From Solirubrobacteraceae bacterium (GTDB lineage: Bacteria > Actinomycetota > Thermoleophilia > Solirubrobacterales > Solirubrobacteraceae), in the NCBI GenBank assembly GCA_017882455.1, contig JADGPL010000009.1, positions 1-64,000 on the forward strand: DNA of 64,000 nt, read 5' to 3'. Below are positions 7,442-60,956 of this stretch, one piece after another (position 1 is the stretch's first letter; every line of letters starts with the position of its first letter). A program made the translations under genes and the position numbers. Under the pieces are notes generated by a model, which was not told the DNA's origin, made no database searches, and was given only the letters and a program-made list of their open reading frames with translations.

Positions 7442-7621
7442 GCTCGCACGCGAGAGACATCGTCGGGCAAATGCCGGCTTCTCGAACTGGCGGCCCATAC
7501 GGAAATTCTCCCTATTCGGCGCACGACTGGCGGGGCATGGCCAGCGAGTTTCGGCACATTCGCCGAAGGGCTGAGCGCGAGGAGACTGCGCCCGTCTGCC
7601 GGGTGGCGGATACTGGGCAGG

Positions 7622-8119
7622 ATGGCGGGGAAGAATCTGGAGCGGGCGCCGGAAAAGCGCGTCGAGCAGCGCAACATCGATGTCCACGCCCGCGCAGTCG
7701 CCGCTGTTGTCGCACGCGAGGTACCTGCGGAGATCCTTGCCCCGGATTTTCGCATGGAGAACCGCGTGACAGCCGTCACCGACTACACGTATCACGGGGC
7801 TGACGGCTGGCGCGAATGGATGAGTGACCTCTTCGAAATGTTCGCCGGAGCAGCGCGCTACCGGGTGGAGGAGGAGATCGCCGCCGGAGAGGATTTCGTG
7901 GCAGCCACCTTCTGCGTGGAGGGGATCGGCGTCCGCTCGAGGATGCCGCTCAGCTTCCGTTGGGCCGGCGTCACCTGGTTTCGCGACGGGAAGGTCACGC
8001 TCGCCGTCGGCTACCCCACGCGGGAGGAGGCCCTGAGGGCTGTGGGGCTGGAGGAGCCGGCCGAGTCGCATCCCACGCGCCCAGATCGCAGAATTCGCCA
8101 AGTTCGCAGGATTCCCTAA
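7622..8119 (+). CDS. SnoaL/NTF2-like small protein
   Basis: A 165-residue soluble protein. The central part, about residues 15-130, has the pattern of an NTF2/SnoaL cone fold: an N-terminal helix with 'VPAEILAPDFRMENRVT', then 'YTYHGADGWREWMSDLFEMF' and the strand pattern 'YRVEEEIAAGEDFVAATFC'. The tail is Arg/Pro-rich. Members include polyketide cyclases, dehydratase-like enzymes and binding proteins, so no reaction is assigned. It follows a 180-bp gap after rfbG and ends 10 bp before the sigma-factor gene, suggesting co-transcription with that gene. Confidence 0.6.
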   Translation: MAGKNLERAPEKRVEQRNIDVHARAVAAVVAREVPAEILAPDFRMENRVTAVTDYTYHGADGWREWMSDLFEMFAGAARYRVEEEIAAGEDFVAATFCVEGIGVRSRMPLSFRWAGVTWFRDGKVTLAVGYPTREEALRAVGLEEPAESHPTRPDRRIRQVRRIP

Positions 8120-8129
8120 TCTCCCGCGG

Positions 8130-9563
8130 GTGAGCCCGCTGACCCTCCGTCGCTACCGAGCCGAGCGGTTGCTCGAGAGCCAGTTCAAGGGCCTGCAGGC
8201 TCCCGTCGTGGCGAACGTGGCGCGCCGCCTGCGCGGAGCGAACGTGGATCTCGATGCCTGCGATCTCGAGGCCTGCTACGCGATCGCCTGGCAGGGTCTC
8301 TACGCCGCGGTGCTCGACGGCCAGGAGATCGTCAACCCGGCCGGGTGGCTGATCCTGGTCACCTTCCGCCGCGCGATCGAGGAGCACCGAGCCCGCGCTC
8401 GCGCCCACCGCGGCGCCGATCGCGCGCCCGGGCCTGGCACTCATGGCGAGCTGGCCAACGGCATCGAGTCGGCAGCCGCGCAGGAGCACGATCTAGCCGC
8501 CGAGCTCGATGACCGCGCGCGGCTGCGTCATCTGTTCGAGGCGCTGCGCGGTCGTCTCGGCGCTCGCGAGCGCGAGGCGGCGGTGCTCTGCTATCTGCAG
8601 GGACTGCCGCGGGCTCAGGCCGCTGCGCGCATGGGCGTCAGCGAGGCGCGGATGCGCAAGCTGATGGAGGGTCGGGGACCGGGGAGGCCCGGCGTGGCTG
8701 GGAAGATGGGGGCGCTGGTTGAGACGATCCGCGACGGCGGCTGGTGCGAGGAGCAGGGTTCGTTGATGCGGGGGCTGGCCTTCGGCATCCTCGATCCAGC
8801 GGGCGAGCGCTATCGGCTCGCCCTGATGCACCGCAGCCAGTGTCCCGCCTGCCGCGCATACGTCACCTCCCTGCGCGGACTGGCCGCCACCATGCCGCCC
8901 GTACTGCTGCCGGGGGGTCTCGGGGCCCTCGCCCTCGCGGGCCTCGGAAGTGGCGCGCGCCTCGGGGGAGCGGGGACCGGCGCTCATGTGGGCCGAGGGC
9001 TTGGCGGCAACCTGCCGGCGTCAGGCGCGGCCGGCGCGGGCGCGGGCGCGAGCACGGGAAGCGCGGCCGGCGGTGGCTGGCTGCTGGCCGGCGGCGGCAA
9101 GCTCGCGGTCGGGTGCCTGCTCGCGGTGAGCGTGGGCACCGGCTGCATAGCGCTGAAGGTCGGAGCCGACCGGCCGTCGGCGCCCGCGCACGAGCACCGC
9201 GCCCGTGCTTCTTCGCCGGGCCGCAGCGCCGCGCCGCGCTGGAGCTCTCGAGCGAGCTACGACTACGCGGCTGCCCGCCTCGGGCCGCCGACGCCCGCTG
9301 CTGTCCGGGCGGAAGCTCCCTCGACGGCACAGCTCACGCCGGCCCGCAGGGTCACCCGCGAGTTCGGACCGGAGCGCGCCTCGGCCACGAGTGCCGCCAG
9401 TTCACCCACCGCCCGCGCCACGGCGCGCGCCTCCGAGGTGATCGGGAGCACGGCATCGGTAGGTGGCACATCGTCAGCTGGCGCCGCATCGGCTGGCGCC
9501 GCATCGGCTGGCGCCGCTTCGGCTGGCGCCGCGCAGGCGAACCGGGAGTTCTCTCCCGGATAA
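8130..9563 (+). CDS. ECF-type sigma factor with C-terminal zinc-finger-like motif, membrane segment and low-complexity tail
   Basis: The first 185 residues look like an ECF sigma factor. A region-2-like helix set lies around 45-95 ('PAGWLILVTFRRAIEEHRA'). A region-4 helix-turn-helix lies around 130-185 ('AREREAAVLCYLQGLPRAQA', then 'MGVSEARMRKLMEG'). H234-x3-C238-x2-C241 ('HRSQCPACRAYV') matches the HxxxCxxC signature of zinc-binding anti-sigma domains. A hydrophobic segment at about 317-340 follows, then about 130 residues of Ala/Ser/Pro/Gly-rich sequence ending in SAGAA repeats. Known ECF families with fused regulatory C-termini offer a parallel. Direct membrane tethering and self-inhibition are inferred. 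The GTG start is 10 bp after the preceding gene. Confidence 0.75.
   Translation: MSPLTLRRYRAERLLESQFKGLQAPVVANVARRLRGANVDLDACDLEACYAIAWQGLYAAVLDGQEIVNPAGWLILVTFRRAIEEHRARARAHRGADRAPGPGTHGELANGIESAAAQEHDLAAELDDRARLRHLFEALRGRLGAREREAAVLCYLQGLPRAQAAARMGVSEARMRKLMEGRGPGRPGVAGKMGALVETIRDGGWCEEQGSLMRGLAFGILDPAGERYRLALMHRSQCPACRAYVTSLRGLAATMPPVLLPGGLGALALAGLGSGARLGGAGTGAHVGRGLGGNLPASGAAGAGAGASTGSAAGGGWLLAGGGKLAVGCLLAVSVGTGCIALKVGADRPSAPAHEHRARASSPGRSAAPRWSSRASYDYAAARLGPPTPAAVRAEAPSTAQLTPARRVTREFGPERASATSAASSPTARATARASEVIGSTASVGGTSSAGAASAGAASAGAASAGAAQANREFSPG
9477..9533 (+). repeat. 15-bp tandem repeat inside the sigma-factor tail
   Basis: A unit GCTGGCGCCGCATCG is repeated about 3.8 times in a row (9477-9491, 9492-9506, 9507-9521 with one T substitution, and a partial 9522-9533). 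Being a multiple of three it stays in frame and encodes an Ala/Gly/Ser pentapeptide at the end of the sigma-factor tail. Copy number could vary by slippage without frameshift. Confidence 0.9.
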
Positions 9564-9571
9564 CGCCCGGA

Positions 9572-10879
9572 TCAGCCTTTGGGGAAGACCTTGCCGAGAC
9601 GCGCCAGCGCGAGCAGGTTCCCGCGCGGGCGCAGGCGCCCCGTTGCCACCGCCCGTAGCGGGTCCAGCCGATCGCCCACGATGTCCACCCAATCCTGGTA
9701 GGAGAGGCGCAGGCGCAAGTCCGCGCTCGAGGCCTCGCCCTGCTCCACGGTGCTCGATCCGTTGTTGACCGTCAGATGCCAGGTCGGGATGTCCGGGTCG
9801 GTGAACTCCCATTGGAAGGTCGTCGGCCGCTTGAGCCCATGGCTGGGGTTCACCTGCCGGCGGATCGTGTCGAAGAGCAGCGCGAGGGTGTCGGGATCGC
9901 GGGCCGTGGGTCCCTCGCGCACGCCGGTGATCCCGGCCTTGGCGAGTGCCTGCCCTCGCTGTGTGACCTCCAGCGGCGAGAGCCCCTGGGGCAGCAGCGG
10001 TGGTCCGGGCAGCGCCTCGAGGGGCAGGCCGGCGGAGCGCAGCTTGGTGGTCATCGAGGTGAGGCCCTCGACGCCGACCTTGTCGAATGTGTAGTTGAAC
10101 ACCGTCAGATATGTCTCGTCCCATCCGGGCGGCATCAGCACCTGGGAGGTGAACGGCGTGACCTCGCGCAGGATGCGCGCGACCGCCTTGGGAACGCGGA
10201 CCGGATCTTCTCGATTGAGGTCGGAGAGGAGCTTGACGCCGAAGCCGATGTGGCGCTGCTCATCGGCGGCGATGTTCTCCATGCCCTCGCGGAACGCCGG
10301 CAACTGGTTGCGTTCCTCGAGGTAGCTGCAGATGAAGTGCTGCCCCGGCTGGGCGAGCGAGGCCTCGATGACGATGTGGTAGAGCGTCACGGCGGCCGCG
10401 AGCTGGGCGGGCGAGCGGTCGGCGCGCAGCTCGTCGGCCATCCGGTCGAGACGATCGAAGATCTTGCGAAAGCCCGATGTGAGCTGGGGCTTGATCGCGG
10501 TGAGGCCACTGGACATCGAGCCGTCGCCGATCCCGCAGACCTCCTGCATGAAGCGCTTGAAGAAGACGGCGTGGCGCGCCTCGTCGACCTGCTGGGTGGT
10601 CAGGAAGTACTTCTGCTCCTCGCGTGGCGCGGCGTCGATGTAAGGAGAGAGGTTGTCGGCGACCGCGTCCTCCCCCCAGAAGAACAGGCAGTAGTTCCAC
10701 AGCGCCGCCTGGCGCTCGAACTCGGTGAAGTCCTCGCGCCATTGGCGCGCATCCTCGGTGAAGTCCAGCTCGGTCGCACACCAGTTGCCGCGCTCCCAGC
10801 GCGCATACAGATCCTCGTAGGAGATCGCGTCGGCCGGGAGGGCGGCCACGTCGGCGTCAGAGGTGATTGCGCTCGCCAT
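9572..10879 (-). CDS. R2-like ferritin-superfamily oxidase (ribonucleotide reductase beta-like) with C-terminal SCP2-like domain
   Basis: A 435-residue protein. Residues about 50-290 form a ferritin-like four-helix carboxylate bundle with the di-metal ligands of the R2/R2lox family: E70 ('WGEDAV'), E100-xx-H103 ('DEARHAVFF'), a later Glu in 'IVIEASLAQ', and E-xx-H in 'ADEQRHIGF'. Residues about 330-435 resemble an SCP2 sterol-carrier domain ('WHLTVNNGSSTVEQG' then 'ADLRLRLSYQDWVDIV'). The ATG at 10879 has an AGGAGC ribosome-binding site. Family members use Mn/Fe or Fe/Fe cofactors for one- or two-electron oxidations of bound lipid-like ligands. The lipid-binding extension suggests an oxidase on hydrophobic substrates rather than a true NrdB; no class I NrdA lies nearby. 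Confidence 0.82.
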   Translation of the reverse strand: MASAITSDADVAALPADAISYEDLYARWERGNWCATELDFTEDARQWREDFTEFERQAALWNYCLFFWGEDAVADNLSPYIDAAPREEQKYFLTTQQVDEARHAVFFKRFMQEVCGIGDGSMSSGLTAIKPQLTSGFRKIFDRLDRMADELRADRSPAQLAAAVTLYHIVIEASLAQPGQHFICSYLEERNQLPAFREGMENIAADEQRHIGFGVKLLSDLNREDPVRVPKAVARILREVTPFTSQVLMPPGWDETYLTVFNYTFDKVGVEGLTSMTTKLRSAGLPLEALPGPPLLPQGLSPLEVTQRGQALAKAGITGVREGPTARDPDTLALLFDTIRRQVNPSHGLKRPTTFQWEFTDPDIPTWHLTVNNGSSTVEQGEASSADLRLRLSYQDWVDIVGDRLDPLRAVATGRLRPRGNLLALARLGKVFPKG

Positions 10880-12369: not shown

Positions 12370-14400
12370 GTGGGCGCGATGACGGCCAAGCTCACCGGGT
12401 CGCTGCGCGAGGCGCCCGCGACGGTGCCGGCGCTCGCGGCGGTGGCGCTGTTCGTGCTGTGGGCCACCGACCAGGCGGGCTATCCCGTGACCCACTGGGC
12501 CCCAGGGGGGCTGATCGTGCTGATCCTGCTCGGCATGGGTATCGGCCTGATCCGGCTGCGCCCCGCCGAGATGCCCACTCCGGTGCGCGTCGCGCTCGGC
12601 GCGATGATCGCCTACACGGCGCTCAGCTTCATGTCGATCCTGTGGGCGGCTGTTCCGGGCGATGCCTGGGAAGGGGCCAACCGGACGCTGCTCTACCTGC
12701 TGGTCTTCGCCCTGTTCGCCTGCTGGCGCCAGCGAGGCGTCGGCGCGGCGCTGCTGCTCGTGATCTGGACGCTCGCGTTGATCGTGCTGGCGGCAGTCGA
12801 TCTGCTGCACGTGAATGGGGCGAGCGGCTCACACCTGCAGGAGATGATCCCGGGCGGGCGGCTGGACTACCCCACGGGCTATCCCAACGCCAACGCGGCG
12901 CAATGGCTGATGGCGTTCTGGCCGGCCGTGCTGCTGGCGCGCAGCGAGCGTCTCCCCTGGGGGATTCGCGGTCTGCTGGCCGGCGGGGCGGTGCTGCTGG
13001 CCGAGGTGGCCCTGCTCAGCCAGAGTCGCGGCTCGCTCTACGCCACACCCGTGATGCTCGTGCTCGTATTCGCTCTGCTGCCCCGCCGGATACGCACCTT
13101 TGCGCTGCTCGTGCCCGTGGCGGGCGGCGTGGCCGCCGCTGCGCCGTCGGTGTTGAAGGTGGGCGATCACCTCACCAAAGGGGCCGTCCGCGCCTCGTCT
13201 GTGCACGGCGCTGTGACGAGCACCTTCGTGGCCGCCATCGCAGTCGGCCTGGTGGTGGCCTTGGCCGCTGCCATCGAGTCCCGGAGCACCGCCTCCACTG
13301 CGACCCGCGGTCGGCTCCGCACCGGCATCGGAGCACTCGCCGTCGCCGCGCTGATCGCGGTGCTCGCCGTTGGCCTCCTCGCCGCCGGCAATCCTGTGAC
13401 GAGGATCGAACACGGCTGGGACAGCTTCAAGGGCGGCTATGGAGAAACCACCTCGACGGGCAGCCACCTGGTCAGCGGGCTGGGAAGCAACCGCTACGAC
13501 TTCTACCGCGTGGCGCTCGACGAATTCGTGGCGCACCCGGTGGTGGGCATCGGCGCCGACAACTTTCAGCAGCAGTATCTCGCTCGTGGGCGCAGCGACG
13601 AGACGCCCCACTATCCACACAGCGTCGAGTTGCGAACCCTTACGCAGACCGGCCTGGTGGGCGCGCTGCTCGCGCTCGTGGGCCTGGCGGCCGCGCTGCT
13701 CGCCGCGGCGCGCTCGCTCAGAGGTCCCGATCCGCTGGGCGGCGCGGTTGCGGCCGCCGCTCTGGCGGGGTTCGGCTACTGGGTGGTGCACGGGTCCTTT
13801 GACTGGTTCTGGGAGTTTGCGGGGCTGGGGGCGCCCGCGTTCGCGATGCTCGGCATCGCTCTCGCGCTCGCGCCCGGGCGCGAGCCTGCCGCGCGATCCA
13901 CGGCGGGGCGGCCGGCGCTCCTCAGGCGCGCGCTGCTCGCCGCGGGCCTGCTGGTGGCGCTGGCAGCGGCGGCCTCGCTGGCGGCTCCGTGGCTCAGCCA
14001 GCTCCAGGTCGAGAGCGCCGCGCGGATCTGGACGAAGGCTCCGCAGGCGGCCTATGCGCGTCTGCGCCAGGCGGCGAAGCTCAATCCACTGAGCGACGAG
14101 GCCTACCTCGTGGCCGGCAGCATCGCCTTGCGCTACGGCGAAACGGCGCATGCGGATCGCGAGTTCGCGCGGGCGCTGTCACGTGCTCCGGGGGACGCCT
14201 ACGCCACCCTCGAGCGCGGCGCGATCGCCTCGGCCAGAGGCGAACGATCGGCCGCTCTGCGACTGCTGGGGCACGCGGTTGCGCTCGACCCGCGCGACGG
14301 CCTCGCCCGGGAGGCCCTGGCCGTCGTCCGCGCCGGCCATCGGATAAATTCCGATGAACTGAACCGCTCAATCCTTCTCAAAGCTCGCCAACTGGCCTGA
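12370..14400 (+). CDS. O-antigen ligase/polymerase (Wzy/WaaL-like) membrane protein with C-terminal TPR region
   Basis: A 676-residue integral membrane protein with about a dozen hydrophobic helices. A large extracytoplasmic loop carries the Wzy_C signature ('YDFYRVALDEFVAHPVVGIG', then 'HYPHSVELRTLTQTGLVG'). After the last helix (about residue 545) come TPR-like helices ('PQAAYARLRQAAKLNPLSDE', 'HADREFARALSRAPGDAYA'). The family polymerises or transfers undecaprenyl-PP-linked glycans on the outer face of the membrane. GTG 12370 or ATG 12379 may be the start. A second protein of this family lies at 32994-34373, so one may polymerise and the other ligate, or each may serve a different glycan. 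Confidence 0.85.
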   Translation: MGAMTAKLTGSLREAPATVPALAAVALFVLWATDQAGYPVTHWAPGGLIVLILLGMGIGLIRLRPAEMPTPVRVALGAMIAYTALSFMSILWAAVPGDAWEGANRTLLYLLVFALFACWRQRGVGAALLLVIWTLALIVLAAVDLLHVNGASGSHLQEMIPGGRLDYPTGYPNANAAQWLMAFWPAVLLARSERLPWGIRGLLAGGAVLLAEVALLSQSRGSLYATPVMLVLVFALLPRRIRTFALLVPVAGGVAAAAPSVLKVGDHLTKGAVRASSVHGAVTSTFVAAIAVGLVVALAAAIESRSTASTATRGRLRTGIGALAVAALIAVLAVGLLAAGNPVTRIEHGWDSFKGGYGETTSTGSHLVSGLGSNRYDFYRVALDEFVAHPVVGIGADNFQQQYLARGRSDETPHYPHSVELRTLTQTGLVGALLALVGLAAALLAAARSLRGPDPLGGAVAAAALAGFGYWVVHGSFDWFWEFAGLGAPAFAMLGIALALAPGREPAARSTAGRPALLRRALLAAGLLVALAAAASLAAPWLSQLQVESAARIWTKAPQAAYARLRQAAKLNPLSDEAYLVAGSIALRYGETAHADREFARALSRAPGDAYATLERGAIASARGERSAALRLLGHAVALDPRDGLAREALAVVRAGHRINSDELNRSILLKARQLA

Positions 14401-18837: not shown

Positions 18838-20040
18838 TCAGGTGCGTGAGACCAGGGCGTTCGCCATCTCGGCTGCCAGCGCGGGGTCCACGTCGATGCC
18901 GAGCTGCGGGATCTCTGGTCGCAGCGTCCTCGGCAGCAGGCGCCAGAGGAGGCGGGCGCGCCCGCCGACGGCCACGACCGCGTCCGTCGTGCGCAGTTGC
19001 ATCTCGACATCGAGCGCACGCATCACAGCCAGCGGGAGCAGACGATCGAGGTGGTGCACGGTCAAGCCCTCATCGGCTTCCCCTGGTGCGCTGCGCACGT
19101 GCTCGGTGCGAGATGCCCCGGCCGTGATCAAGGCCACGTCGAGCCCGTGCTTCTGCAGGCCCGCCAGCCAGCTCGTCGCCGCCCGTATCCCCTCCTCGCC
19201 GCTGGCAACCGCCACGACCTTCACGGACCCGTTCGGCCGACGGCCGAAGTGCTCTGTGCGAGCCGCGCCCGACGTCGAGGCAGGCTGCCCGCGCAGGAGC
19301 ACGAGCGTCCAGACCAGCGCGTCAGAGGCCACGTCGAGCGAGATCTTGAGCAGCCCTCGCCAGCCGTCCCGCCAGCCCTCCTCGAGGATCGAGCGGTAGA
19401 GGAGCTTGGCGATGGGCCGCAGCACGATGCCGGTCAGATAGCCGTCGACCCGAGCGGGTCGCGCGAGGTGGCGGCTCTCCAGCCGCGCGTAGCGCCACGC
19501 GTCGAGCAGGGCCTCACGCAGCGTCCCGGCGAGCTCGTGCTCGAGATCGCCGCCGAGCACGAACGGTCGCCTGCGCGGTTCGATGCCCTCGTGAACCATG
19601 CGTGCCTCGTCGTGACGGTAGGCGCCTCGCCGAAACATCCGCGCCCGGTAGCCGGGGTACTTGGCCGAGGGCCCGAGCGGTCGGCCAAGGAAGTGGTTGC
19701 GCAGCGGGCACACTGCCATCTCGACATCCGAGGCCTCTGCCGCGAGCAGTCCTTCGATGCTCGCGCGCAGCTCCTCTGAGACGCGCTCGTCGGCGTCGAT
19801 CTCGAGGATCCACTCGCCGGTGGCGGCGTCGAGGGCGAGGTTGCGCTGGGCTGCGAAGCCGGGCCAAGGATTCTCGATCACCCTCGCGCCGGCCGCCCGC
19901 GCGATCTCGACGGTGCGGTCGGTCGACCCTCCGTCGACGACGATCACCTCATCGCAGAAGGCGACGCTCTCGAGCGCCGCCGCGAGACGCTCCTGCTCGT
20001 CCTGGACGATCAGGCAGGCTGACAGGCGCTCCCTGGACAC
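18838..20040 (-). CDS. Family 2 glycosyltransferase with extra C-terminal domain
   Basis: A 400-residue protein from GTG 20040. Residues about 1-240 are a GT-A transferase of the WaaE/KdtX-like group: 'SACLIVQDEQERLAAALESV', 'VIVVDGGSTDRTVEIA', 'WILEIDADERVSEEL' (DxD), 'YPGYRARMFRRGAYRHDEA'. Its acceptor side is membrane-proximal. Residues about 265-400 form an added domain ('VKVVAVASGEEGIRAATSWL' with later 'AVVAVGGRARLLWRLLP') that looks like an alpha/beta fold but which I do not recognise. Transcribed divergently from the GT4 gene, 23 bp apart. Some relatives add heptose or glucose to glycan cores. Confidence 0.85.
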   Translation of the reverse strand: MSRERLSACLIVQDEQERLAAALESVAFCDEVIVVDGGSTDRTVEIARAAGARVIENPWPGFAAQRNLALDAATGEWILEIDADERVSEELRASIEGLLAAEASDVEMAVCPLRNHFLGRPLGPSAKYPGYRARMFRRGAYRHDEARMVHEGIEPRRRPFVLGGDLEHELAGTLREALLDAWRYARLESRHLARPARVDGYLTGIVLRPIAKLLYRSILEEGWRDGWRGLLKISLDVASDALVWTLVLLRGQPASTSGAARTEHFGRRPNGSVKVVAVASGEEGIRAATSWLAGLQKHGLDVALITAGASRTEHVRSAPGEADEGLTVHHLDRLLPLAVMRALDVEMQLRTTDAVVAVGGRARLLWRLLPRTLRPEIPQLGIDVDPALAAEMANALVSRT

Positions 20041-20063: not shown

Positions 20064-21185
20064 GTGCGCCAGGGCCGGATCGTCTCAATCCAAACGACGA
20101 ACGAGCGCGGCGGCGCCGAGTACGCCAACGTGGATCTGCTCGCGGCGCTCAGGGCGCGGGGACATGATGTGGTGCTGTTGACCAACTTCCCCGACCTGGC
20201 CTCGGGAGCGGGCGTCCCGGTGCGGGCGATCGACCTCGGGCCCAAGCTCGCTCGTCGCACCGTCCTGCTGGTCGTGGCGCAGGCGCCGCTGACGCTGCTG
20301 CGCCTCGCGCGCGCTCTCAGAGCGCAGCGACCCGTGGGCGCGCTGATGTTGCACTTCAAGAAGGAGCAGCTCCTCTGCGCGCTGTTGCCGCGCAGACTCA
20401 CCGGGGAGATCGTCTGGGCCGAGTGGGGACCCGTTCCGCTCCCGATGCGTCGCGGCCCGGCCCGCCTCCTGTACGCGCTCGCCGCGCGGCGAGCGCGACG
20501 GATCATGGCCATCTCCGAGGGGACCAGGCGCACGATCATCGATGCCGGCGTGCCGGCCGAGAAGGTCGACGTGGTCCCCAACCTGGTTGACGTCGAGGCG
20601 GTCAAGCCCGATCCCCGCAGCAGGACGGAGCTGCGTGCTGCATGGGGCGCCGGCGAGCAGACCCTGGTCGTGGGCTGCATCTCGCGCTTTCAGCGGCGCA
20701 AGCGCAACGACGTGGTCATCGACGCCATGGCTCATCTGGAGGGCGATGTGCAGCTGGTGATCGCCGGCGAGGGCGAGGAGGAGGCGGCCCTGCGCGAGCG
20801 AGCCGCGCCGTATGGGAAGCGCGTTCGCTTCGAGCCGAACGTGCGCGGTCACGTCGAGGCGTTCCTGTCGGCCTGTGACCTGCTGGTGTTCGCTCCGAGC
20901 CCGACCGAGGGCGAGCCGCGGGTGATCGTGATGGCCCAGCTCGTCGGGATCCCCGTCGTCGCCACCGACCCCGAGGGCGCGCAGGGACTGATTCCCCCGG
21001 GCGGTGGCACGATCGTCTCGCCGCATCACGATGCCCGCGCGCTGGCGCTCACGCTGGCGGCATATCGCGACGATCGCGAGCGCTGCCTGAGCGAGGGACG
21101 CACAGCCCGCGCCGCCACGCTGGAGAGTCACGCGCCGGAGCGGACGCTTCGTGCCGTCGAGCGTGCGTTCGGCCTGGATTCCTGA
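20064..21185 (+). CDS. Family 4 glycosyltransferase
   Basis: A 373-residue GT-B enzyme from GTG 20064. The N-terminal acceptor domain begins 'RIVSIQTTNERGGAEYANVD' with the glycine-rich GGAE motif. The C-terminal donor domain has 'VGCISRFQRRKRNDVVIDAM', 'LVIAGEGEEEAALRERA' and the E-x7-E type donor site 'SPTEGEPRVIVMAQ' then 'GIPVVATD'. It is a retaining transferase using a nucleotide sugar, acting at the cytoplasmic face. Sugar specificity cannot be read from sequence. Confidence 0.93.
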   Translation: MRQGRIVSIQTTNERGGAEYANVDLLAALRARGHDVVLLTNFPDLASGAGVPVRAIDLGPKLARRTVLLVVAQAPLTLLRLARALRAQRPVGALMLHFKKEQLLCALLPRRLTGEIVWAEWGPVPLPMRRGPARLLYALAARRARRIMAISEGTRRTIIDAGVPAEKVDVVPNLVDVEAVKPDPRSRTELRAAWGAGEQTLVVGCISRFQRRKRNDVVIDAMAHLEGDVQLVIAGEGEEEAALRERAAPYGKRVRFEPNVRGHVEAFLSACDLLVFAPSPTEGEPRVIVMAQLVGIPVVATDPEGAQGLIPPGGGTIVSPHHDARALALTLAAYRDDRERCLSEGRTARAATLESHAPERTLRAVERAFGLDS

Positions 21186-21229: not shown

Positions 21230-22171
21230 GTGCGTTCTCGCGTCATGTCTGTCCTGGGCACGCTCGCGCTCGTCCTCCTGCTGCTGTGCGCCGCCGGCTG
21301 CGCGCAGGCGAATCCGGGGAGGCCCCTGAAGGTGCAGGCCGCCTCCGCGCTGCCCCGCTCGAAGTCCTCCCACGTGATCGTGGTCATGATGGAGAACGAG
21401 GAGGCCACCAGCATCGTGGGCGATTCAGCCGCCCCCTACGCCAACTCGCTGATTCGCCGCTACGGGCTGGCCACGCAGAGCTTCGCCATCGCCCATCCCT
21501 CGCTCCCGAACTACCTCGCCCTCACGAGCGGATCGACTCAGGGTGTGACCAGCGATTGCACCGAATGTCATACGAGTGCGATCAACATCGTCGACGAGCT
21601 CGAAGCCAAGCGCACCTCCTGGAAGGCATACATGGAGGAACTGCCCGCGCCCTGCTTCACGGGCGCTATGGCGGGCGGCTATGCCAAGAAGCACGATCCC
21701 TTCATCTACTACGACGACGTCGCCCAGTCTTCCGGGCGCTGTCACAGGATCGTCGGCTTCGGCGCCCTCAGCAGCGACCTGCGCCATGGGGCGCTGCCCA
21801 CCTTCGCCTGGATCTCACCGAATCTGTGTGACGATGGCCACGACTGCGGGGTAAGCGGTGGCGATCGGTTCCTGCGCCGTGCGGTGCCGTCGCTCTTGCG
21901 TGAGCTCGGGCCACACGGCTACCTGGTGCTCACGTGGGACGAGGGCAGCTCGAACAGCGGGTGCTGCAGCGGGGCGCAGGGCGGGCGCATAGCCACGATC
22001 GTGGCCGGCCCCGATGTGCGTAGCGGCGCACGCTACGGCGGAGCGGTCGACCACTACGGCGTGCTTGCCACGATCGAGGAATCGCTCGGTCTGCCACTGC
22101 TCGGCGGTGCGGCCGACCCGCACAGCGGACGGCTGAGCGCTCTGTTCACCCGGCCGCCTCACATCGGCTGA
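21230..22171 (+). CDS. Exported acid phosphatase/phosphoesterase family protein (AcpA/phospholipase C-like), probable lipoprotein
   Basis: A 313-residue exported protein. The N-terminus ('VLGTLALVLLLLCAAGCAQA') is a signal peptide ending in a lipobox-like AAGC. The mature part is a phosphoesterase of the alkaline-phosphatase superfamily: 'HVIVVMMENEEATSIVG' (metal/nucleophile region), 'IAHPSLPNYLALTSGS', 'DPFIYYDDV', and 'LVLTWDEGS' near the end. Relatives hydrolyse phosphomonoesters or phospholipids outside the cell. GTG 21230 or ATG 21245 may start it. Its stop overlaps the next start by one base (TGATG), implying coupling to the nucleotidyltransferase/2H gene. Confidence 0.85.
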   Translation: MRSRVMSVLGTLALVLLLLCAAGCAQANPGRPLKVQAASALPRSKSSHVIVVMMENEEATSIVGDSAAPYANSLIRRYGLATQSFAIAHPSLPNYLALTSGSTQGVTSDCTECHTSAINIVDELEAKRTSWKAYMEELPAPCFTGAMAGGYAKKHDPFIYYDDVAQSSGRCHRIVGFGALSSDLRHGALPTFAWISPNLCDDGHDCGVSGGDRFLRRAVPSLLRELGPHGYLVLTWDEGSSNSGCCSGAQGGRIATIVAGPDVRSGARYGGAVDHYGVLATIEESLGLPLLGGAADPHSGRLSALFTRPPHIG

Positions 22172-23268
22172 TGGAGTCACCTGCGATACAGCGATCGGCC
22201 TCGCCGGCGAAATTCGAGCCTCCGCTCTTTTATCGAGTGACGGGCTCGCTGAACGTCCTCGTGTGGAAGCTGCCGCTGCCTCAGCGTGCGTTGGCGCGGC
22301 TGAGCAAAACCGTATACCGCAGCCCGCCGATGCCCGGCAAGGCGGTCGTGGCGATCGTCGATGCTCTGCAAGCGGCCGGCATTCGCTGCTGGATCAGCGG
22401 TGGCTGGGGCGTGGATGCGCTGGCGGGAAGATGCACCCGCCCCCATGGCGATCTCGATCTGGTGGTTGAAGACAAAGACATCGAGCGCTCCGTCGATGTC
22501 CTGGCGGGGCTCGGATATTGGGAGTGGTATCGCGCCGAGTCGGAGGTGCCGCTGTTCTCGCGGGTGGTCCTGCACGATCACGAGACCGCCGGGCGGGCGG
22601 TCGACCTGCACCCGCTCGAGCTGTCGGGAACGCACGTGGAATTCGCCTCCGGGGAGATCGAAGGCCGCCCGGTGCCCTGCCTATCCCTGTCGCTGCAGCT
22701 GAAGACGCACTCCAGCTACCGCAAGCGCTGGCGTGATCGTTCCGATCTCGCGCTGCTGCGCAAGCTGGGCGAGGGCTCGGTGACCACGCTGATCGTGCCC
22801 GTCCCGGCGGCCGACGGACTGCTCCAGAAGTCCGCTCGTGAGGCCGGCATACCGCCCCACATCACGATCTTCTACCCCTTCCTCAACGTGCGCACGATCG
22901 ACGCCGAGACAGAGTCTGCGCTCGCGGCTCTGCTGCAGGAGGTTCCCTGCTTCGACTTCGAGCTGACCGATATCGGACGCTTTCCCGGCGTCGTGTACCT
23001 CTCGCCGGAGCCGGCCGCGCCATTCGTGGCCCTGACGCAGGCGCTCGCCGGGCGCTGGCCCGATCACCAGCCATATGAAGGCGCCTACGAGGAGATCGTT
23101 CCGCACCTCACCGTCGCCTACGGGGCCTCGATACCCGGCGGCCTGGCTGAGCGGCTGCCTGTGCGCGTGCGCGCCGAGGAGGTGTGGCTGATGAGCAAGG
23201 TCGCTCGCCGCTGGACGCGGCGCAGGGCCTTTCCCCTCGGTCCGTCTACGGGCGGGGACGCCCTGTAA
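22171..23268 (+). CDS. Nucleotidyltransferase fused to 2H phosphoesterase (LigT-like)
   Basis: A 365-residue two-domain protein. Residues about 55-200 form an aminoglycoside-adenylyltransferase-like nucleotidyltransferase: 'CWISGGWGVDALAGRCTRPH' followed by GDLDLVV, with putative metal ligands D94, D96 and D145 ('GRAVDLHPLEL') and the C-terminal 'QLKTHSSYRKRWRDRSDLAL'. Residues about 205-355 form a 2H phosphoesterase with both motifs intact, H230-x-T232 ('PPHITIFYPF') and H312-x-T314 ('PHLTVAYG'). The former family transfers NMP to small molecules or RNA; the latter cleaves 2',3'-cyclic or 2'-5' phosphodiesters. The combined substrate is unknown. Coupled to the upstream phosphatase gene. Confidence 0.85.
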   Translation: MESPAIQRSASPAKFEPPLFYRVTGSLNVLVWKLPLPQRALARLSKTVYRSPPMPGKAVVAIVDALQAAGIRCWISGGWGVDALAGRCTRPHGDLDLVVEDKDIERSVDVLAGLGYWEWYRAESEVPLFSRVVLHDHETAGRAVDLHPLELSGTHVEFASGEIEGRPVPCLSLSLQLKTHSSYRKRWRDRSDLALLRKLGEGSVTTLIVPVPAADGLLQKSAREAGIPPHITIFYPFLNVRTIDAETESALAALLQEVPCFDFELTDIGRFPGVVYLSPEPAAPFVALTQALAGRWPDHQPYEGAYEEIVPHLTVAYGASIPGGLAERLPVRVRAEEVWLMSKVARRWTRRRAFPLGPSTGGDAL

Positions 23269-23274: not shown

Positions 23275-24507
23275 CTAGTGGCTCCGTGCGTATTGGGAGA
23301 TTGTGTTGGCGCCGTTGTTGGTGGTGTAGATGTTGTGGCCGTCGGGGCTGATTGCGATGCCTTCGGGGTCTGCTCCGGTTGGGATGGTGGTGGGGGTGAG
23401 GGCGGTGAGGATCCCGGTTTCGCTGTTGCGGGTGTATTGCGAGACGGTGTTGGTGGTCTCGTTGGTTGCGTAGACGTTGGTTCCGTCGGGGCTGACGAGG
23501 ACGCATTCGGTGTATTCGCCTGCCGTGATGGCGGCGGTGGATGTGAGCGCTCCGGTGGTCGTGTTGCGCGTGAACAGCGTGACTTTCCCTGGGGAGGTGC
23601 TGTTCGCTACGTATACGCTTTTGCCGTCGGGGCTGATCGCGAGGTCGTGGGGGTTGACTCCGGCTGCGACGGTGGCGGGGCTGAGGGCGGTGAGTTTGCC
23701 TGTTTCGCTGTTGCGGGAGTACTCAGAGACGGTGCTGGAGTTGTAGTTGGTGGCGTAGACGCTCTTGCCGTCAGGGCTGACGGCCATGCCATGGACGTTG
23801 GCTCCTGCCGGGATCGTGGCGGGTGAGAGCGCGGTGAGCACCCCGGTTTCGCTGTTGCGGGAGTACTCCGAGACGGTGGCGGAGGAGGAGTTGGCCGCGT
23901 AGACGCTCTTGCCGTCGGCGCTGATCGTCATGCCGATCGGTCCTTCGCCTGCCGCGACGGTCGCTTTTGAGAGGGCGGTGAGCTTGCCCGTTTCGCTGTT
24001 GCGGGAGAACTCCGAGACGGTGTTGGAGTACCTGTTGGCCACATACACATCCTTGCCGTCCGGGCTGATCGCGATGCCCTCGGGCGAGTAGCCCGCTTCC
24101 ACGCTCGCCGGCGAGAGCGGCGTGAGCGCCCCCGTTTCAGGGTTGCGCGCGTACTGCGAGACGGTCGTCGTGAACCTGTTGGCCGCATACGCGCTGCGAC
24201 CATCCGGGCTCACCACCATACGCGCCACACCACTACCCGCACCCACACTCCCCGGCGAAAGCGCCGACAACAACCCGGAGCCTTCCGCTGCGAGCGCGCT
24301 CGGCGCACCGCCCAGGGATGCGACCACCAAGGCGAGGAGGAGTACGAGGGACGTGCGCCCCTGCCGCGGGCAGCGCCGAAGGGAAGGTTCGATGAACCTT
24401 CGATCACGCTCCGAGAACAGCTGTATGTCGGGCGAATTCAGGGCACGCGCTCGCCTGCGGCCCATCGCCCTCGCATGCCTCCAGTAGAACATCAGTCGGG
24501 CCTCCAT
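23275..24507 (-). CDS. Exported YVTN-type seven-bladed beta-propeller
   Basis: A 410-residue protein. A long N-terminus ends in a hydrophobic stretch ('TSLVLLLALVVASLGG', about 53-68) and APSALAAEG, read as a signal sequence. The rest is about seven units of 48 residues, each of the form 'SPDGKSVYVAN...TVSEYSRNSETGKLTAL', matching the YVTN/lactonase-type propeller. At the DNA level units are about 144 bp and very similar, implying recent duplication. Propellers of this type bind proteins or glycans at the surface; enzymatic residues of 6-phosphogluconolactonase are not evident. Its stop lies 6 bp from the convergent 2H-fusion gene. Confidence 0.85.
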   Translation of the reverse strand: MEARLMFYWRHARAMGRRRARALNSPDIQLFSERDRRFIEPSLRRCPRQGRTSLVLLLALVVASLGGAPSALAAEGSGLLSALSPGSVGAGSGVARMVVSPDGRSAYAANRFTTTVSQYARNPETGALTPLSPASVEAGYSPEGIAISPDGKDVYVANRYSNTVSEFSRNSETGKLTALSKATVAAGEGPIGMTISADGKSVYAANSSSATVSEYSRNSETGVLTALSPATIPAGANVHGMAVSPDGKSVYATNYNSSTVSEYSRNSETGKLTALSPATVAAGVNPHDLAISPDGKSVYVANSTSPGKVTLFTRNTTTGALTSTAAITAGEYTECVLVSPDGTNVYATNETTNTVSQYTRNSETGILTALTPTTIPTGADPEGIAISPDGHNIYTTNNGANTISQYARSH

Positions 24508-24604: not shown

Positions 24605-25354
24605 TCAGCCCAGATCTCTGAATGAGCCGAGCCTGCGGCCTTGCAGGGCTCGCCGCCACCCCGCTGACGTCAGGATCGCGAAGTCCATGTCACGGTCGGG
24701 GTGGACCATGATCTCGGCACTGCCACGATCGGCGAGCCGGAGTAGATCCTCGATGGACTCGTCGGTGGGCGTGGGGCCCAGTCGGTCGATCCCGTAGAAG
24801 TAGTCGGTCGTGGTCTGTCTGCGGGCGATGAGCGCGTGACGGGATCTGCGCAACAGGGCAGTCAGGCCATCTCGACCTCCATCGCCGCCGCCCGACTGGC
24901 CGGTGCGTACCGGCATGCCCTTGGGAAGCGCCATCAGCACGGTGGGGCTCAGATGCGCGTGGTTGTGTCCGTCGATGTGACTCGGATCGCCGCCGAACAG
25001 CTGGCGAAACCGCTCGAGCTGGTCCTCGACGCAGCGCCGTGCACAGGCGCTCATCACCGGATTGAACGTGAAGCGCCTGAGGCGCCTGCCGGCGAAGTAG
25101 CGTGCGAGCCGCGCCTGGCGTTCGCGTACCGGCAGGGGCGCGGCCGGATCCTCGAGCTCCTGCGTCACGTTGAGATGCAGGCCGACGGCAAGCCCCCGAG
25201 AGCGTCCGATCTCGGCCGCGCGCTCGGAGTCGCTCATGTAGACCATCGCGCTCGTGCTGGTGATGCCACCGCTCGCGAAGCACTCGGCGATCCTGTCCGT
25301 CGCGAGTCGATTTCCGCCGAAATCGTCGGCATTGATGATCAGCAGGCCAGGCAC
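24605..25354 (-). CDS. ChbG/YdjC-type carbohydrate deacetylase
   Basis: A 249-residue cytoplasmic protein with the YdjC fold. 'LIINADDFGGNRLATDRI' carries the catalytic/metal Asp pair, 'GLAVGLHLNVT' a metal His, and 'DPSHIDGHNHAHLSPTV' the further His ligands. 'EIMVHPDRD' is the usual C-terminal block. ChbG removes N-acetyl groups from chitooligosaccharides; here a substrate from the surface glycan is plausible. It diverges from the flippase gene with about 90 bp between the starts. Confidence 0.9.
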   Translation of the reverse strand: MPGLLIINADDFGGNRLATDRIAECFASGGITSTSAMVYMSDSERAAEIGRSRGLAVGLHLNVTQELEDPAAPLPVRERQARLARYFAGRRLRRFTFNPVMSACARRCVEDQLERFRQLFGGDPSHIDGHNHAHLSPTVLMALPKGMPVRTGQSGGGDGGRDGLTALLRRSRHALIARRQTTTDYFYGIDRLGPTPTDESIEDLLRLADRGSAEIMVHPDRDMDFAILTSAGWRRALQGRRLGSFRDLG

Positions 25355-25444: not shown

Positions 25445-26893
25445 ATGTCGACTTCCGCTCGCACTGCCACCCGGCAACGCGCCGTCCACGACGTCCTGAT
25501 GCAGGTCGTCGTGCGCGTCCTGAACCTGGCTCTCGGCGTGGTCGTCACCGCGCTGATCGCGCGGACCCTCAAAAGCGCGGGCTATGGCGAATGGTCGACG
25601 ATCTTCGCGATCCTCAGCCTGACGAGCTACTTCATGAGCTTCGGCGCTGAAAGCATCGTGGTGCGTGAGGCCGCCCGCGATCCCGCGCGCGAACGCGAAT
25701 GGCTCGGGGCGATCATGGCCATGAGGCTGATCGCGCTCGCCCCCGTGATGCTGATCTCACTCGGCGCGATCCTGCTGGTCCAGCAGAGCCACACGATGCT
25801 GCTTGTGGGGCTGATCCTCGTCGTCTTCATGCCGTTCGACGGGATCGGCGTGCTGCAGCTCGTCTTCCAGCTGCGCGTCAACAACCGCATTCCGATGCTG
25901 GTGCTCACGATCAGGAGCGTTCTGTGGGGCGTCGCGGTGCTCGTGATCTATGAGCGCGGGGGCGGCATGGTCGCGCTGGCGATCGCGCTGGTGCTCACCA
26001 ACCTGGCCGGTTCGATCGTGCAGACCGTGGCCGCGCTGCGGACGCTCGGACGCTGGCCGCGGCCATCTCGCGCACGGCTGGGAGAGCTGCTGCGGGCGAG
26101 CCTGCCGCTCGGCCTCACCGGCATGCTGGTGGTGGGATACGGGCGCATCGACCAGGTGATCGTGCTGCAGGCGGTCGGCAGCAGGGCCGCCGGTCTCTAC
26201 GGCGCTGTGTACAGCGTGCTGGACCGTGCGCACTTCGTGCCCATCTCCGTACTCGTCACGCTGGCGCCGATCATGGCCGCCGCGTGGCCGACCGATCCCA
26301 CGCGCATGCTGCGCGCGGCCCGTCTGACGGCGGAGTTGATGGCGATCACCTCGCTCGGCGCGCTCGCGTTCGCATCGGTCGCCGCGACGCCGCTGGTGCG
26401 TCTCTTCTTCGGGCCCGACTACACCGCGGCGGCGCCCGCGCTGCCGGTGCTCGGCGGGGCATTCGTGTTCATCTGCTTCGGCTATCTGAACGGCAACCTG
26501 ATGGTGGTGCTCGGGCTGCAGCGGCGCTTCCTGAAGATCAGCCTGATGGCGCTCATCTTCAACCTCGCAGGCAACCTCGTGCTCGTTCCGCTCACCGGCT
26601 TCATCGGCGCGGCATGGATGACGCTGGCGACCGAGATGCTCGTGTGCGCCATGTGCCTCTCGGCGATCCTGCGCGAGCTGAAGCGTCCCTTGCCGCGCCC
26701 CGGACGGATCACCCGCACCGTCCTGGCGGCAGCGCTTCTGTTCGGCGCCCTGAGCGGGCTGAACGCGCTGAGCGCATCGCTCGTCGTCCTCGTGCTCGCT
26801 GCGTGCGCGCTCTACCCCGTGCTGCTGCTGGGCCTCGGGGCGCTGGGGCGCGAGGACATCGCGGTCGTCCTCAAGCGCGCCGAGCTGACCTGA
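25445..26893 (+). CDS. Polysaccharide flippase (Wzx/MVF-like, MOP superfamily)
   Basis: A 482-residue protein with about 12-14 hydrophobic helices and little else. The start is ATG 25445. N-terminal 'VLNLALGVVVTALIARTLKS' with 'GYGEWSTIFAILSL' is the typical first-helix pattern of Wzx/RfbX proteins, and 'LVRLFFGPDYTAAAPALPVL' near residue 325 is a widely conserved cytoplasmic-loop signature. It should move undecaprenyl-PP-linked repeat units across the membrane. It is the only flippase in the window, positioned between the two ligase-like genes it would supply. Confidence 0.92.
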   Translation: MSTSARTATRQRAVHDVLMQVVVRVLNLALGVVVTALIARTLKSAGYGEWSTIFAILSLTSYFMSFGAESIVVREAARDPAREREWLGAIMAMRLIALAPVMLISLGAILLVQQSHTMLLVGLILVVFMPFDGIGVLQLVFQLRVNNRIPMLVLTIRSVLWGVAVLVIYERGGGMVALAIALVLTNLAGSIVQTVAALRTLGRWPRPSRARLGELLRASLPLGLTGMLVVGYGRIDQVIVLQAVGSRAAGLYGAVYSVLDRAHFVPISVLVTLAPIMAAAWPTDPTRMLRAARLTAELMAITSLGALAFASVAATPLVRLFFGPDYTAAAPALPVLGGAFVFICFGYLNGNLMVVLGLQRRFLKISLMALIFNLAGNLVLVPLTGFIGAAWMTLATEMLVCAMCLSAILRELKRPLPRPGRITRTVLAAALLFGALSGLNALSASLVVLVLAACALYPVLLLGLGALGREDIAVVLKRAELT

Positions 26894-31449: not shown

Positions 31450-33057
31450 ATGGGTATCATCGACCCTGGTGACCTCATCAAACCCGGTGGCATAGCCCTG
31501 CCCGATCCCGAGCCCGCACCCGACATCTCAAGCGCTCCGACCGTTTCGCCGTTTGAGCTGCTTTCGGTTCTGTGGCGACGGAAGATCGTCGTGATCGTCG
31601 TGGTCGTGCTCAGCGTCGCGGTCTCGACGGTGCTCTCGGTGCGCTCCACCAAGGAGTACTCGGCCACCGCCGAACTCCTCTTCCGCGAACCCGGCTTCGC
31701 TCAGGCTCTGTTTGGCAGCAACCTGTTCTCGACGGGACAGCAGGAAGCGCAGCGCACGACCCAGACCAACATCGACGTCGTCACCTCGCTCAACGTCGGC
31801 GCGGAGGCTGCGAGCCTGCTGGCGAATCGCTTCCATGCCCACGAATCGGTGCAGTCGCTCGTGGGCTCGATCTCGGTCACGCCCAGCGCCGGCGCGGAAA
31901 TCGCGATAATCAAGGCGACCCGCCTGCATCCCCAGGAAGCCGCGGCCGTCGCCAACGCGTTCGCCGAAGGCTACATCATCTATCGGCGCCAGACGGACCG
32001 TGCTGCGGTCGCACAGGCCGAAGAACTCGTGAGCCAGTCGCTCAAGACCGCCTCGCCGGCGGAGGCGGTCAAACTCGACGAAAGCCTGCGTCAGCTCGGC
32101 GTGTTGCGATCGCTGCAGACCGGCAGCGCGGAGGTGATCGCGCGGGCGCAGCCCAACTCCACACCGGTCTCCCCCAAACCCAAGCGGGACGCTCTGCTGG
32201 GGTTCGTGGTCGGACTGCTCGTCGGCTGCGGGTTGGCGCTTCTGGTCGACTTCCTCGACCGTCGGTTGAAGACGATCGACGACTTCGAACGGGTATGTCC
32301 CGATTACACCCTGCTGGCGACGGTGCCTCACACCCGCTCCAATCTGACGGCCGCTCAGCATTCCGCCGGCCCCGGGGGCGAGGCCTACCGCATGTTGCGG
32401 GAGGGGATGCGCTTCGTCGATCCCACCGGGCTGGCGCGGTGCTTCTTGATCACCAGCGCCGACGAAAGCGAGGGCAAGAGCACGGTGGCGGCCAATCTCG
32501 CCTCGGCGCTCGCCGCGGTCGGGCGCCGCGTGATCCTGGTGGAGGCCGACATGCGCCGTCCGGCAGCAGCGGCGCAGCTCGGGATCAGCCGCAACCTCAA
32601 GGGCCTCTCGGACCTGCTCATCTCGGATGCGGATCTCGACACGCTGCTCGTACCCGTCGGCGAGGAGTCGGGGCTCCTGGTGCTGCCGAGCGGGACGATC
32701 CCCCCCAACTCCTCCGACCTGCTCAGCGGAGGACGCATGGGGGAAGTCCTCGCACGCGCAGCCGAGTCCGCCGACATCGTGATCGTGGACTCCCCTCCGC
32801 TGCTGCCCGTCGCCGATACGCGCGTGCTGCTGAGGCTATCCGAGGTCCACGGGGTGATCATGGTCGGACGAGTCGACGTCAGTCGTCGCGATCGTGTCCG
32901 GGCGGCACGCCACGTGCTCGCTCAGAGCGGACAGCGGGTCTTCGGGCTGGTGGTGACCGACGTCAAGATGACCACCGCGAGCAACTACTACTACTACGAC
33001 GAGCCCAGCCAGCCCAACGAGCGCCCGCGTCGCAGCCGAGTGGGCGCCTCCGTCTGA
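31450..33057 (+). CDS. Wzz-domain BY-type tyrosine autokinase of polysaccharide export
   Basis: A 535-residue fused co-polymerase and bacterial tyrosine kinase. TM1 lies at about 46-64 ('KIVVIVVVVLSVAVSTVL') and TM2 at about 248-267; between them is the extracellular Wzz domain. The cytoplasmic kinase has Walker A at K343-S-T ('SADESEGKSTVAANLA'), Walker A' in 'ILVEADMRRP' and Walker B in 'IVIVDSPPLLPVAD'. The C-terminal cluster of four tyrosines ('SNYYYYDEPSQ') is the autophosphorylation tail. It sets chain length and gates export with the polymerase and flippase. An in-frame TAG directly precedes ATG 31450, so the frame cannot extend upstream. Its 3' end overlaps the convergent ligase gene by 64 bp. 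Confidence 0.95.
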   Translation: MGIIDPGDLIKPGGIALPDPEPAPDISSAPTVSPFELLSVLWRRKIVVIVVVVLSVAVSTVLSVRSTKEYSATAELLFREPGFAQALFGSNLFSTGQQEAQRTTQTNIDVVTSLNVGAEAASLLANRFHAHESVQSLVGSISVTPSAGAEIAIIKATRLHPQEAAAVANAFAEGYIIYRRQTDRAAVAQAEELVSQSLKTASPAEAVKLDESLRQLGVLRSLQTGSAEVIARAQPNSTPVSPKPKRDALLGFVVGLLVGCGLALLVDFLDRRLKTIDDFERVCPDYTLLATVPHTRSNLTAAQHSAGPGGEAYRMLREGMRFVDPTGLARCFLITSADESEGKSTVAANLASALAAVGRRVILVEADMRRPAAAAQLGISRNLKGLSDLLISDADLDTLLVPVGEESGLLVLPSGTIPPNSSDLLSGGRMGEVLARAAESADIVIVDSPPLLPVADTRVLLRLSEVHGVIMVGRVDVSRRDRVRAARHVLAQSGQRVFGLVVTDVKMTTASNYYYYDEPSQPNERPRRSRVGASV

Positions 33058-34373
33058 CGCGCGACCCCCTCGGGCCTGGTGAGTCGTGTGACGCGAGTCG
33101 AGAGCACGCCTCCCATGAGTCCCAGGACGAGGTCGATCTGAGCCCAGTAGAAGCTGTCGTAGAAGACGGTCACGACGGCCATGCCGAGGATGCCCAGAGC
33201 CAGTGACAGCTCGAATCTCGGCGCCAATCCGAGGCGCAGGCATCGCCCCAGCACTCGCAGCGCCACGCCGATCGGAATCACGGCCGCCAGGAGCCCGACG
33301 AGCCCCATGTCCACCGAGATCGAGAGATAGCCGTTGTCGATCGCCCCGATGCTCGTCTTGTTGGCGGCTTCCTTCCCGGAGAAGCCCGGGGCCTGCGCAC
33401 CGAAGAACGGTCGCTTGGAGACTTCTTCCAGCGCATAGCCGTAGCTCCACTTACGGTGCGTCACCGAGTCGCTGCTGGTGATGTTGGAGCCGAGTCGCTT
33501 TTCCACGATGTGATGCAACGAGCCGGTGCTCAGGACGAGGACGACCAAGACCACGAGGCCCGCAACGATCGCTCCCAGCCCGCGCGCGTTCCCCGCCCTC
33601 GCCTGCAGAAGCACGGCGACCATGAGCATCACCACGATGGCGACCCAGGAACTCCGCGATTCGCTGAAGATGAGCAGGGCCGCGCTGCCCGCGGCCACGC
33701 CGCCGGCCAGAAGCCGCGAGCGGTTGTAGGCGTACAGCAGAGCGGCGGGGAGCAGCCCTACGACGAGTGCGCCGTAGGTGATCGGGTAGCCGACGAAATA
33801 GCCGATTCGGTTGGTCGGCGCTTTCGTGTACGCGTCGATTCCCAGCAGCCCGAGCACCAGCAGCGCGCCGAAGGCCGCGGCGAGCAGCCCGCGGCCGTCG
33901 CCAAAGCGTCGGGCACACAGAAACGTGACGCCGCCGAACAGGAAGCCGACGATCTCGACTTCGATCAGGGCGGAGATGCTGCCGAGGCTCGCGTAGATCA
34001 GGATCGCGAGGCCCGCGAACAGCAGCCCCATGAGCAGGCTGGCTCGACTTGGACGCGTCCTGCGCCCGCCGGTTGCCAGCGACCACAGCCAGGGCACCAG
34101 GGGTGCCGCCGCGATGGCGGCGCAGAGGACCTTCTGCTTGAAGATCGGCGGTTCCGCTTTCGTCGAGACGAACGGATACCAGGGGACCACCGCCACGATC
34201 GCGATCGCCCACGGGAAGGCTCGCTCTCCTGCCATCGCGAGACCCAGGACCGCCGCGAGGCTGATGCACAGCAGGATCGCGTCGCTGGGCTTTCGCACCG
34301 CGATCGCCCCGCCCGCGAGTCCGAGCAGAACGCCTGCCGCGAGGATGAGATGCCTGCGCGGAAGTACGCTCAT
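32994..34373 (-). CDS. O-antigen ligase/polymerase-like membrane protein
   Basis: A 459-residue protein with about 11-12 hydrophobic helices. The extracytoplasmic loop contains 'SDSVTHRKWSYGYALEEVSK' and 'RPFFGAQAPGF', the Wzy_C/O-antigen-ligase pattern, and 'IDNGYLSISVDMGLVGLLA' is also typical. It lacks the C-terminal TPR region of the other ligase-like protein in the locus. It likely polymerises the repeat units co-regulated with the kinase. The last 21 codons overlap the convergent kinase gene. Confidence 0.85.
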   Translation of the reverse strand: MSVLPRRHLILAAGVLLGLAGGAIAVRKPSDAILLCISLAAVLGLAMAGERAFPWAIAIVAVVPWYPFVSTKAEPPIFKQKVLCAAIAAAPLVPWLWSLATGGRRTRPSRASLLMGLLFAGLAILIYASLGSISALIEVEIVGFLFGGVTFLCARRFGDGRGLLAAAFGALLVLGLLGIDAYTKAPTNRIGYFVGYPITYGALVVGLLPAALLYAYNRSRLLAGGVAAGSAALLIFSESRSSWVAIVVMLMVAVLLQARAGNARGLGAIVAGLVVLVVLVLSTGSLHHIVEKRLGSNITSSDSVTHRKWSYGYALEEVSKRPFFGAQAPGFSGKEAANKTSIGAIDNGYLSISVDMGLVGLLAAVIPIGVALRVLGRCLRLGLAPRFELSLALGILGMAVVTVFYDSFYWAQIDLVLGLMGGVLSTRVTRLTRPEGVARQTEAPTRLRRGRSLGWLGSS

Positions 34374-56650: not shown

Positions 56651-57271
56651 TCAGAGCGTCGCGCGGCGGCGGGTGAGCAGACGCAGGCGCGCAGCCTCCT
56701 CGCGTTCGCCCTCCTCGAGGCTCAGCTCGAGCGCGGCCAGCTGGGCCTCCTGGCGGGGAACCAGGCGTCGCTCGATCGCACGCGCGCGGCGGGCGACGGT
56801 GGAGAGCTCCTGCGAGACCTGTGCGAGCGCGATCTGCGCGGCGGCCTGCGCGGCGGCGACTCGGGTTGCGCGGCGGTAGGCGAGCGCGGCGTAGTGCAGA
56901 GCCGAGCTTCCGCCGAGCGAGGAGATCGGTGGCGCAGGGCCCTGCTCGAGGCCGGAGATGCGCGGTCGGACGATGCCCATCAGCGGCTCCCAGGCGACCG
57001 TCAGCTCCGGCGCGCGCCGGGTCAGGGAGGCGATTCGCGCGATCTCGCTGGCGTCGTCGAGCAGGGCGGAGCGGGCGAGCCAGCGCTCGGCCTCGGCGAC
57101 CGCCTGCGCCCACTCCGTGGCGGCCGTGGCAGCTGCGTCGCGCAGCCGCCGCTGCTCGGCCAGCAGCGCCTGGCGCTTGCGTGAGAGCAGGTCGGCGCCA
57201 CGGCGCGCGACCGCGAGCCGCCGGCGCAGCACGAGCCGCGCCGCCTTACCCGACGTGCCCGTGCTCGGCAT
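56651..57271 (-). CDS. ntpD: V/A-type ATP synthase subunit D
   Basis: A 206-residue central-stalk subunit. The long antiparallel coiled coil is evident: 'LRRRLAVARRGADLLSRKRQ' followed by 'ALLAEQRRLRDAA' at the N-terminus and 'QELSTVARRARAIERRLVPR' near the C-terminus. Its start (ATG 57271) lies 26 bp inside the upstream B gene, and the 3' end of the operon is here. It couples catalysis in A3B3 to rotation of the c-ring. Confidence 0.93.
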   Translation of the reverse strand: MPSTGTSGKAARLVLRRRLAVARRGADLLSRKRQALLAEQRRLRDAAATAATEWAQAVAEAERWLARSALLDDASEIARIASLTRRAPELTVAWEPLMGIVRPRISGLEQGPAPPISSLGGSSALHYAALAYRRATRVAAAQAAAQIALAQVSQELSTVARRARAIERRLVPRQEAQLAALELSLEEGEREEAARLRLLTRRRATL

Positions 57272-60427: not shown

Positions 60428-60956
60428 AGCGCCGCCACCTCGTCGTCCAGCTGGGCCAGGCAGCGCTTGACCTGCGTCGAGAGCGAGTAGTCGATCTGAC
60501 GGCCCGGAGCGTGGGCGATGATTCCGCCGCCAGGCGCGTCGGTGATCTCGACGTCCGCTCCCAGGCGTTCTCGCGCGTCGCCGATCAGCTGCTCGGTCAC
60601 CGCCTGGTAATCCTCACGGTGGCTCGACGCCTGCTGGGTGACCTCGCGGGCGACGGTGGCGTAGACCTCCCGGCGCGCCGACAGCAGCAGCTCGTGCGCG
60701 TTGCAGCGCGCGGCGGAGAGCACCCGCCGCGCATCGTCCTCGGCGGCCCGGCGGGCAGTGGTGAGCGAGTCCTCGCGCAGCTCCTCCGCGCGCTCGTGGG
60801 CCGCGGCGAGCGCGGCGGCGCTGCGGTCCAGCGCCTGGGCGCGCAGGCGCTCGGCCTTCGCGTGGGCGTCGTCCAGCGCGGCGCTCCGAAGTGGCGCCCA
60901 CGGATCCACCTGCGCGGACGCACGCGTCGCGGCCGCCGGCGCGCGGGGCGAGCGTC

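Follow-up and report, generated by a model that had tools for sequence, protein, structure and literature searches.

A gene of a Solirubrobacteraceae bacterium joins a nucleotidyltransferase (NT) and a 2H phosphoesterase (2H) in a single chain, which raises the question of whether the two halves act together and, if they do, on which substrate. The gene lies within a stretch of 64,000 nucleotides (the window) from a genome of 3.3 Mb that is 95% complete; it runs from position 22171 to 23268 on the forward strand, starts with ATG, and encodes 365 residues.

Domain composition of the fused protein

A preliminary description of the locus had placed a nucleotidyltransferase and a 2H phosphoesterase within one open reading frame, and both assignments were confirmed by Pfam matches far above the gathering cut-offs. 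The PF10706 profile (Aminoglyc_resit, Lnu/ANT(2'') type) matched residues 59-196 (22345 to 22758, forward strand) with an E value of 2.7e-23 and a score of 83 bits against a cut-off of 21, and the PF13563 profile (2_5_RNA_ligase2) matched residues 226-342 (22846 to 23196, forward strand) with an E value of 2.3e-21 and 77 bits against a cut-off of 27. PF14907 gave only a sub-threshold match, and the PF02834 (LigT/ThpR-like) profile had no match in the fusion protein of the window. The active-site residues that had been proposed were all found in place: D94, D96, and D145, which do not vary when the fusion is aligned with plasmid LnuC and six other sequences, and the two HxT motifs H230IT and H312LT, which are 82 residues apart. 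The fusion is a real joining of two known domain families. Upstream of the NT domain, the alignments revealed a conserved basic N-terminal segment (FEPPLFYRVTGSLN..YRSPPMP, residues ~16-55, 22216 to 22335, forward strand) that is missing from most of the stand-alone PF10706 proteins examined. An amphipathic helix was sought at the N terminus and is not claimed here, the hydrophobic moment not being consistently above that of shuffled sequences, and a structure prediction from the single sequence reached a pLDDT of 32.5.

The nearest characterized relatives of the NT half are the resistance enzymes LnuA/LnuC and ANT(2'')-Ia, of which LnuA (4fo1, E value 3e-10) and ANT(2'')-Ia (4wqk) are also the nearest PDB sequences. 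They share with the fusion the GGWGxDAL..TRxHxDLDL and (V/I)DLH motifs and the catalytic Asp triad, and this kinship could suggest a lincosamide or aminoglycoside resistance enzyme carrying an accessory domain. However, the identity to LnuC is only 29%, and the NCBIfam Lnu and ANT(2'')-Ia models gave 28-48 bits against cut-offs of 300-350, the best being Lnu(AN2) with 47.7 against 340. The fusion also differs from these enzymes in the extra basic N-terminal segment, the absence of one insert, the C-terminal 2H domain, and a chromosomal context of polysaccharide genes. By the sequence tests run, the fusion is not a recognized antibiotic-resistance gene, and a resistance function appears most unlikely.

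The PF13563 match and the two HxT motifs assign the C-terminal half to the 2H phosphoesterases (PF13563/PF02834, LigT/ThpR-like), from which it differs in being joined to an NT. No PDB sequence relative of this domain was found at E<5. Streptomyces plasmids encode a stand-alone "2'-5' RNA ligase family protein" with ~39% identity across the 2H domain, but it has no adjoining NT in the region inspected. As a separate observation, such plasmids also carry PF10706-type proteins under the annotation "amino acid transporter" (L102:4052-4540, CP108998.1), an apparent misannotation.

Fused and split relatives within a polysaccharide cluster

Two further species of the genus carry full-length fused homologues, one of up to 398 residues with 59% identity (G019) and one of 395 residues with 50% identity and a longer linker (G013). 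In a third species (G017) NT and 2H are two genes, NT first, that overlap by ATGA, and a further genome (G010) carries NT alone, outside the polysaccharide cluster. The fused homologues and the overlapping split pair show that the gene is neither a chance open reading frame nor a sequencing or assembly join, and thus the concern that two genes might have been joined in one strain only is ruled out. For the domain-architecture search that had been recommended, overlapping samples of genomes were surveyed at the level of the order (232), the class (399), and the phylum (396), and the single-chain fusion appeared in the genus of the window only; the fusion is rare and lineage-restricted. Viral contigs scanned for relatives yielded nothing, phage and plasmid searches returned the halves only as stand-alone proteins and no fusion, and a scan of genome contigs gave one weak 2H match.

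The window comprises a large surface-polysaccharide cluster. It encodes a Wzy_C O-antigen ligase/polymerase (12379 to 14400, forward strand), an initiating sugar-phosphate transferase of PF02397 (15198 to 16733, forward), a GT2 glycosyltransferase recognized by Pfam (18838 to 20040, reverse), a group 1 glycosyltransferase (20064 to 21185, forward), a YdjC-type carbohydrate deacetylase (24605 to 25354, reverse), a Wzx-type flippase (25500 to 26893, forward, start approximate), and a second Wzy_C protein (32994 to 34373, reverse), together with GDP-mannose and UDP-glucose type enzymes and several glycosyltransferases. The clusters of G019, G013, and G017 all conserve the group 1 glycosyltransferase; in G019 and G017 the GT2 gene adjoins NT-2H and a YdjC gene is also nearby. 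Beside the fusion lies a gene for a lactonase-type beta-propeller repeat protein (23275-24507, reverse strand), conserved also in the clusters of G013 and G017, and the genes at 57246-64000 (reverse strand) resemble, judged by eye, an operon for a V/A-type ATP synthase.

All four NT-2H loci of the genus (window, G019, G013, and G017) lie inside a homologous polysaccharide cluster. A marker glycosyltransferase of this cluster was present in 6 of 24 genomes of the genus, and NT-2H was found in four of these six and in none of the 18 genomes without the marker. Two genomes (G007 and G016) have the cluster without NT-2H, several genomes being incomplete drafts, so that NT-2H is an accessory module.

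The gene immediately upstream encodes an exported PF04185 phosphoesterase (21230 to 22171, forward strand), to which the fusion had been said to be translationally coupled. The overlap is real, since the two genes share TGATG at 22169-22173 (phosphoesterase TGA at 22169-22171, fusion ATG from 22171). However, in G019 and G017 the phosphatase gene is located elsewhere in the cluster, away from NT-2H, and G007 has the phosphatase in its cluster without NT-2H. A conserved coupling was therefore rejected, and the arrangement in the window is local.

Linkage of the two domains in other lineages

When 248 genomes of the neighborhood of a more distant genome, G639, were searched with profiles, four had strong matches to NT and 2H alike, each time within 4 kb of each other. 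Pfam identified a single open reading frame with the order Wzy_C-PF10706-Wzx in G639 and G813, two genomes of one genus in family f62, and one with the order PF10706-Wzx in G821, from family f114; both families belong to the phylum of the window but differ from its own family. These frames have about 1290-1400 codons (1.3-1.4 kaa), and 2H is encoded ~3 kb away from NT, on the other strand. Such NT-Wzx polypeptides (L108:6358-10233, in G639, L124:8891-12886, and L123:2714-6769, all reverse strand) are an unusual architecture in their own right.

Two further pairs, each from another lineage, lack polysaccharide neighbors: in G797 the NT and 2H genes overlap by ATGA, in this order, on a 6-kb contig with no polysaccharide genes, and in G201 they are adjacent. 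The pair thus need not be bound to glycans everywhere. In G999 a Wzx gene lies directly upstream of NT at a contig edge, and in G616 a glycosyltransferase cluster surrounds a stand-alone 2H gene (L134:5121-6577, forward strand) that immediately follows an NDP-sugar-type NTP_transferase gene. A broader search of the class found three genomes (G762, G1020, and G1179) with the two halves on different contigs, so that co-occurrence alone does not amount to linkage. In one genome (G056) a small PF01909/PF04439-like nucleotidyltransferase comes after a 2H gene, and a PF10706 NT and an APH-type phosphotransferase lie nearby (L024:9085-9414, 9497-9928, and 6777-7766, all reverse strand); a near-identical NT copy is present on another contig (L073).

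All linked copies retain both HxT motifs and the Asp/Glu triad. In the NT tree the linked label requires five changes, at least three of which are forced by well supported branches; in the 2H tree the branches are so poorly supported that no more than one change in linkage is forced. Repeated gain of the linkage, or a single old origin plus losses, is possible from these sequences. The separate overlapping genes of G017 and the lone NT of G010 would fit two cluster enzymes with different substrates and no mechanistic tie that became one chain when a stop codon was lost. Nevertheless, the recurrence of the linkage in five lineages and the forced changes on the NT tree make such a fortuitous union rather unlikely, and the same recurrence supports the functional NT/2H pair that had been postulated.

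The polysaccharide-assembly context of the linkage extends over three lineages. When the 85 genes immediately adjoining ~59 NT or 2H loci that lack the linkage were scanned with Pfam, no GT, Wzx, or Wzy family occurred in at least two members among the matches listed, beyond which singleton matches may exist. This control indicates that the polysaccharide context tracks the linked pairs and not PF10706 or PF13563 generally. It supersedes an earlier tblastn comparison (linked 6/8, unlinked 4/64, p 3e-5, lineage-collapsed p 0.006), which was circular for L108, L123, and L124 because their matches come from L108-derived references.

The preliminary description had considered an antibiotic, a nucleotide signal, or RNA as substrate, none of which is supported, since the linked pairs are mostly found in surface-polysaccharide assembly with no resistance, defense, or RNA genes recognized alongside. 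An enzyme of RNA ends, or of a toxin-antitoxin or defense system, would combine tRNA nucleotidylation with processing of 2',3'-cyclic phosphates; 2H enzymes do cut phosphodiesters beside hydroxyls, and those of the LigT type take 2',3'-cyclic nucleotides and 2'-5' linkages as substrates (PMC5283653). However, no family of the PADLOC-DB models matched at E 0.01, PHROGs gave no match, and among the genes adjoining the fusion no toxin, antitoxin, or RNA gene was recognized in what is a polysaccharide context, and we consider this assignment very unlikely.

A possible role in surface-glycan tailoring

The NT-2H linkage is well supported, and from the sequences we infer a chemistry and a substrate. 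That the linkage recurs speaks for a function shared by the two halves, most likely in polysaccharide tailoring. We tentatively favor, as a reading with a little less than an even chance of being correct, a bifunctional enzyme that performs two tailoring steps in a surface-polysaccharide pathway, NT nucleotidylating a sugar and 2H then acting on the phosphodiester. The PF10706 enzymes that have been characterized (ANT(2''), Lnu) transfer a nucleotide to hydroxyls of sugar-containing antibiotics, and because the context is rich in sugars, the simplest acceptor would be a hydroxyl on a sugar of some intermediate in polysaccharide assembly. NT would thus transfer NMP from NTP to such a hydroxyl, the intermediate probably being lipid-linked and located at the cytoplasmic face. 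Proximity of NT to the membrane is suggested by the Wzy-NT-Wzx polypeptides: the termini of Wzy and Wzx are normally cytoplasmic, so that a fused NT would sit where NTPs and lipid-linked sugars meet. The 2H domain, which follows NT in the chain, would then hydrolyze or transphosphorylate the NMP-sugar diester, and the presumed product would be a glycan from which the nucleotide is removed or on which the phosphate is left. A more specific proposal, which we regard as quite unlikely, is a new route of glycan phosphorylation in which the fused 2H would cleave the P-O5' bond of the added NMP, leaving a phosphate, or a cyclic phosphate formed through a neighboring hydroxyl, on the polysaccharide repeat.

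The two opposed-looking chemistries in one chain, and the direct fusion of NT to Wzx, and in two of the three genomes also to Wzy, could point instead to a regulatory pair in which some protein encoded in the cluster, for instance Wzx, Wzy, or a glycosyltransferase, receives a nucleotide from NT and is freed of it by 2H. The model for such a pair is the adenylyltransferase/adenylyl-removing enzyme GlnE, which shares with the fusion the idea of opposed nucleotide-transfer domains in one chain but in which both domains are NTs, the substrate is a protein, and there is no 2H. The characterized PF10706 members use small molecules, and to our knowledge no 2H enzyme removes AMP from a protein; a regulatory function is therefore unlikely.

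A search of the open-access literature yielded no account of polysaccharide clusters with an NT-2H pair. A PF10706 match is usually taken to mark an antibiotic-resistance enzyme and a PF13563 match a 2'-5' RNA ligase, and the linkage suggests that some members of each family cooperate in surface-polysaccharide formation. The fusion offers a compact, assayable protein with both steps in a single chain, and if the polysaccharide role is true, automatic annotations would need to be corrected and a glycan modification not described so far would be indicated.
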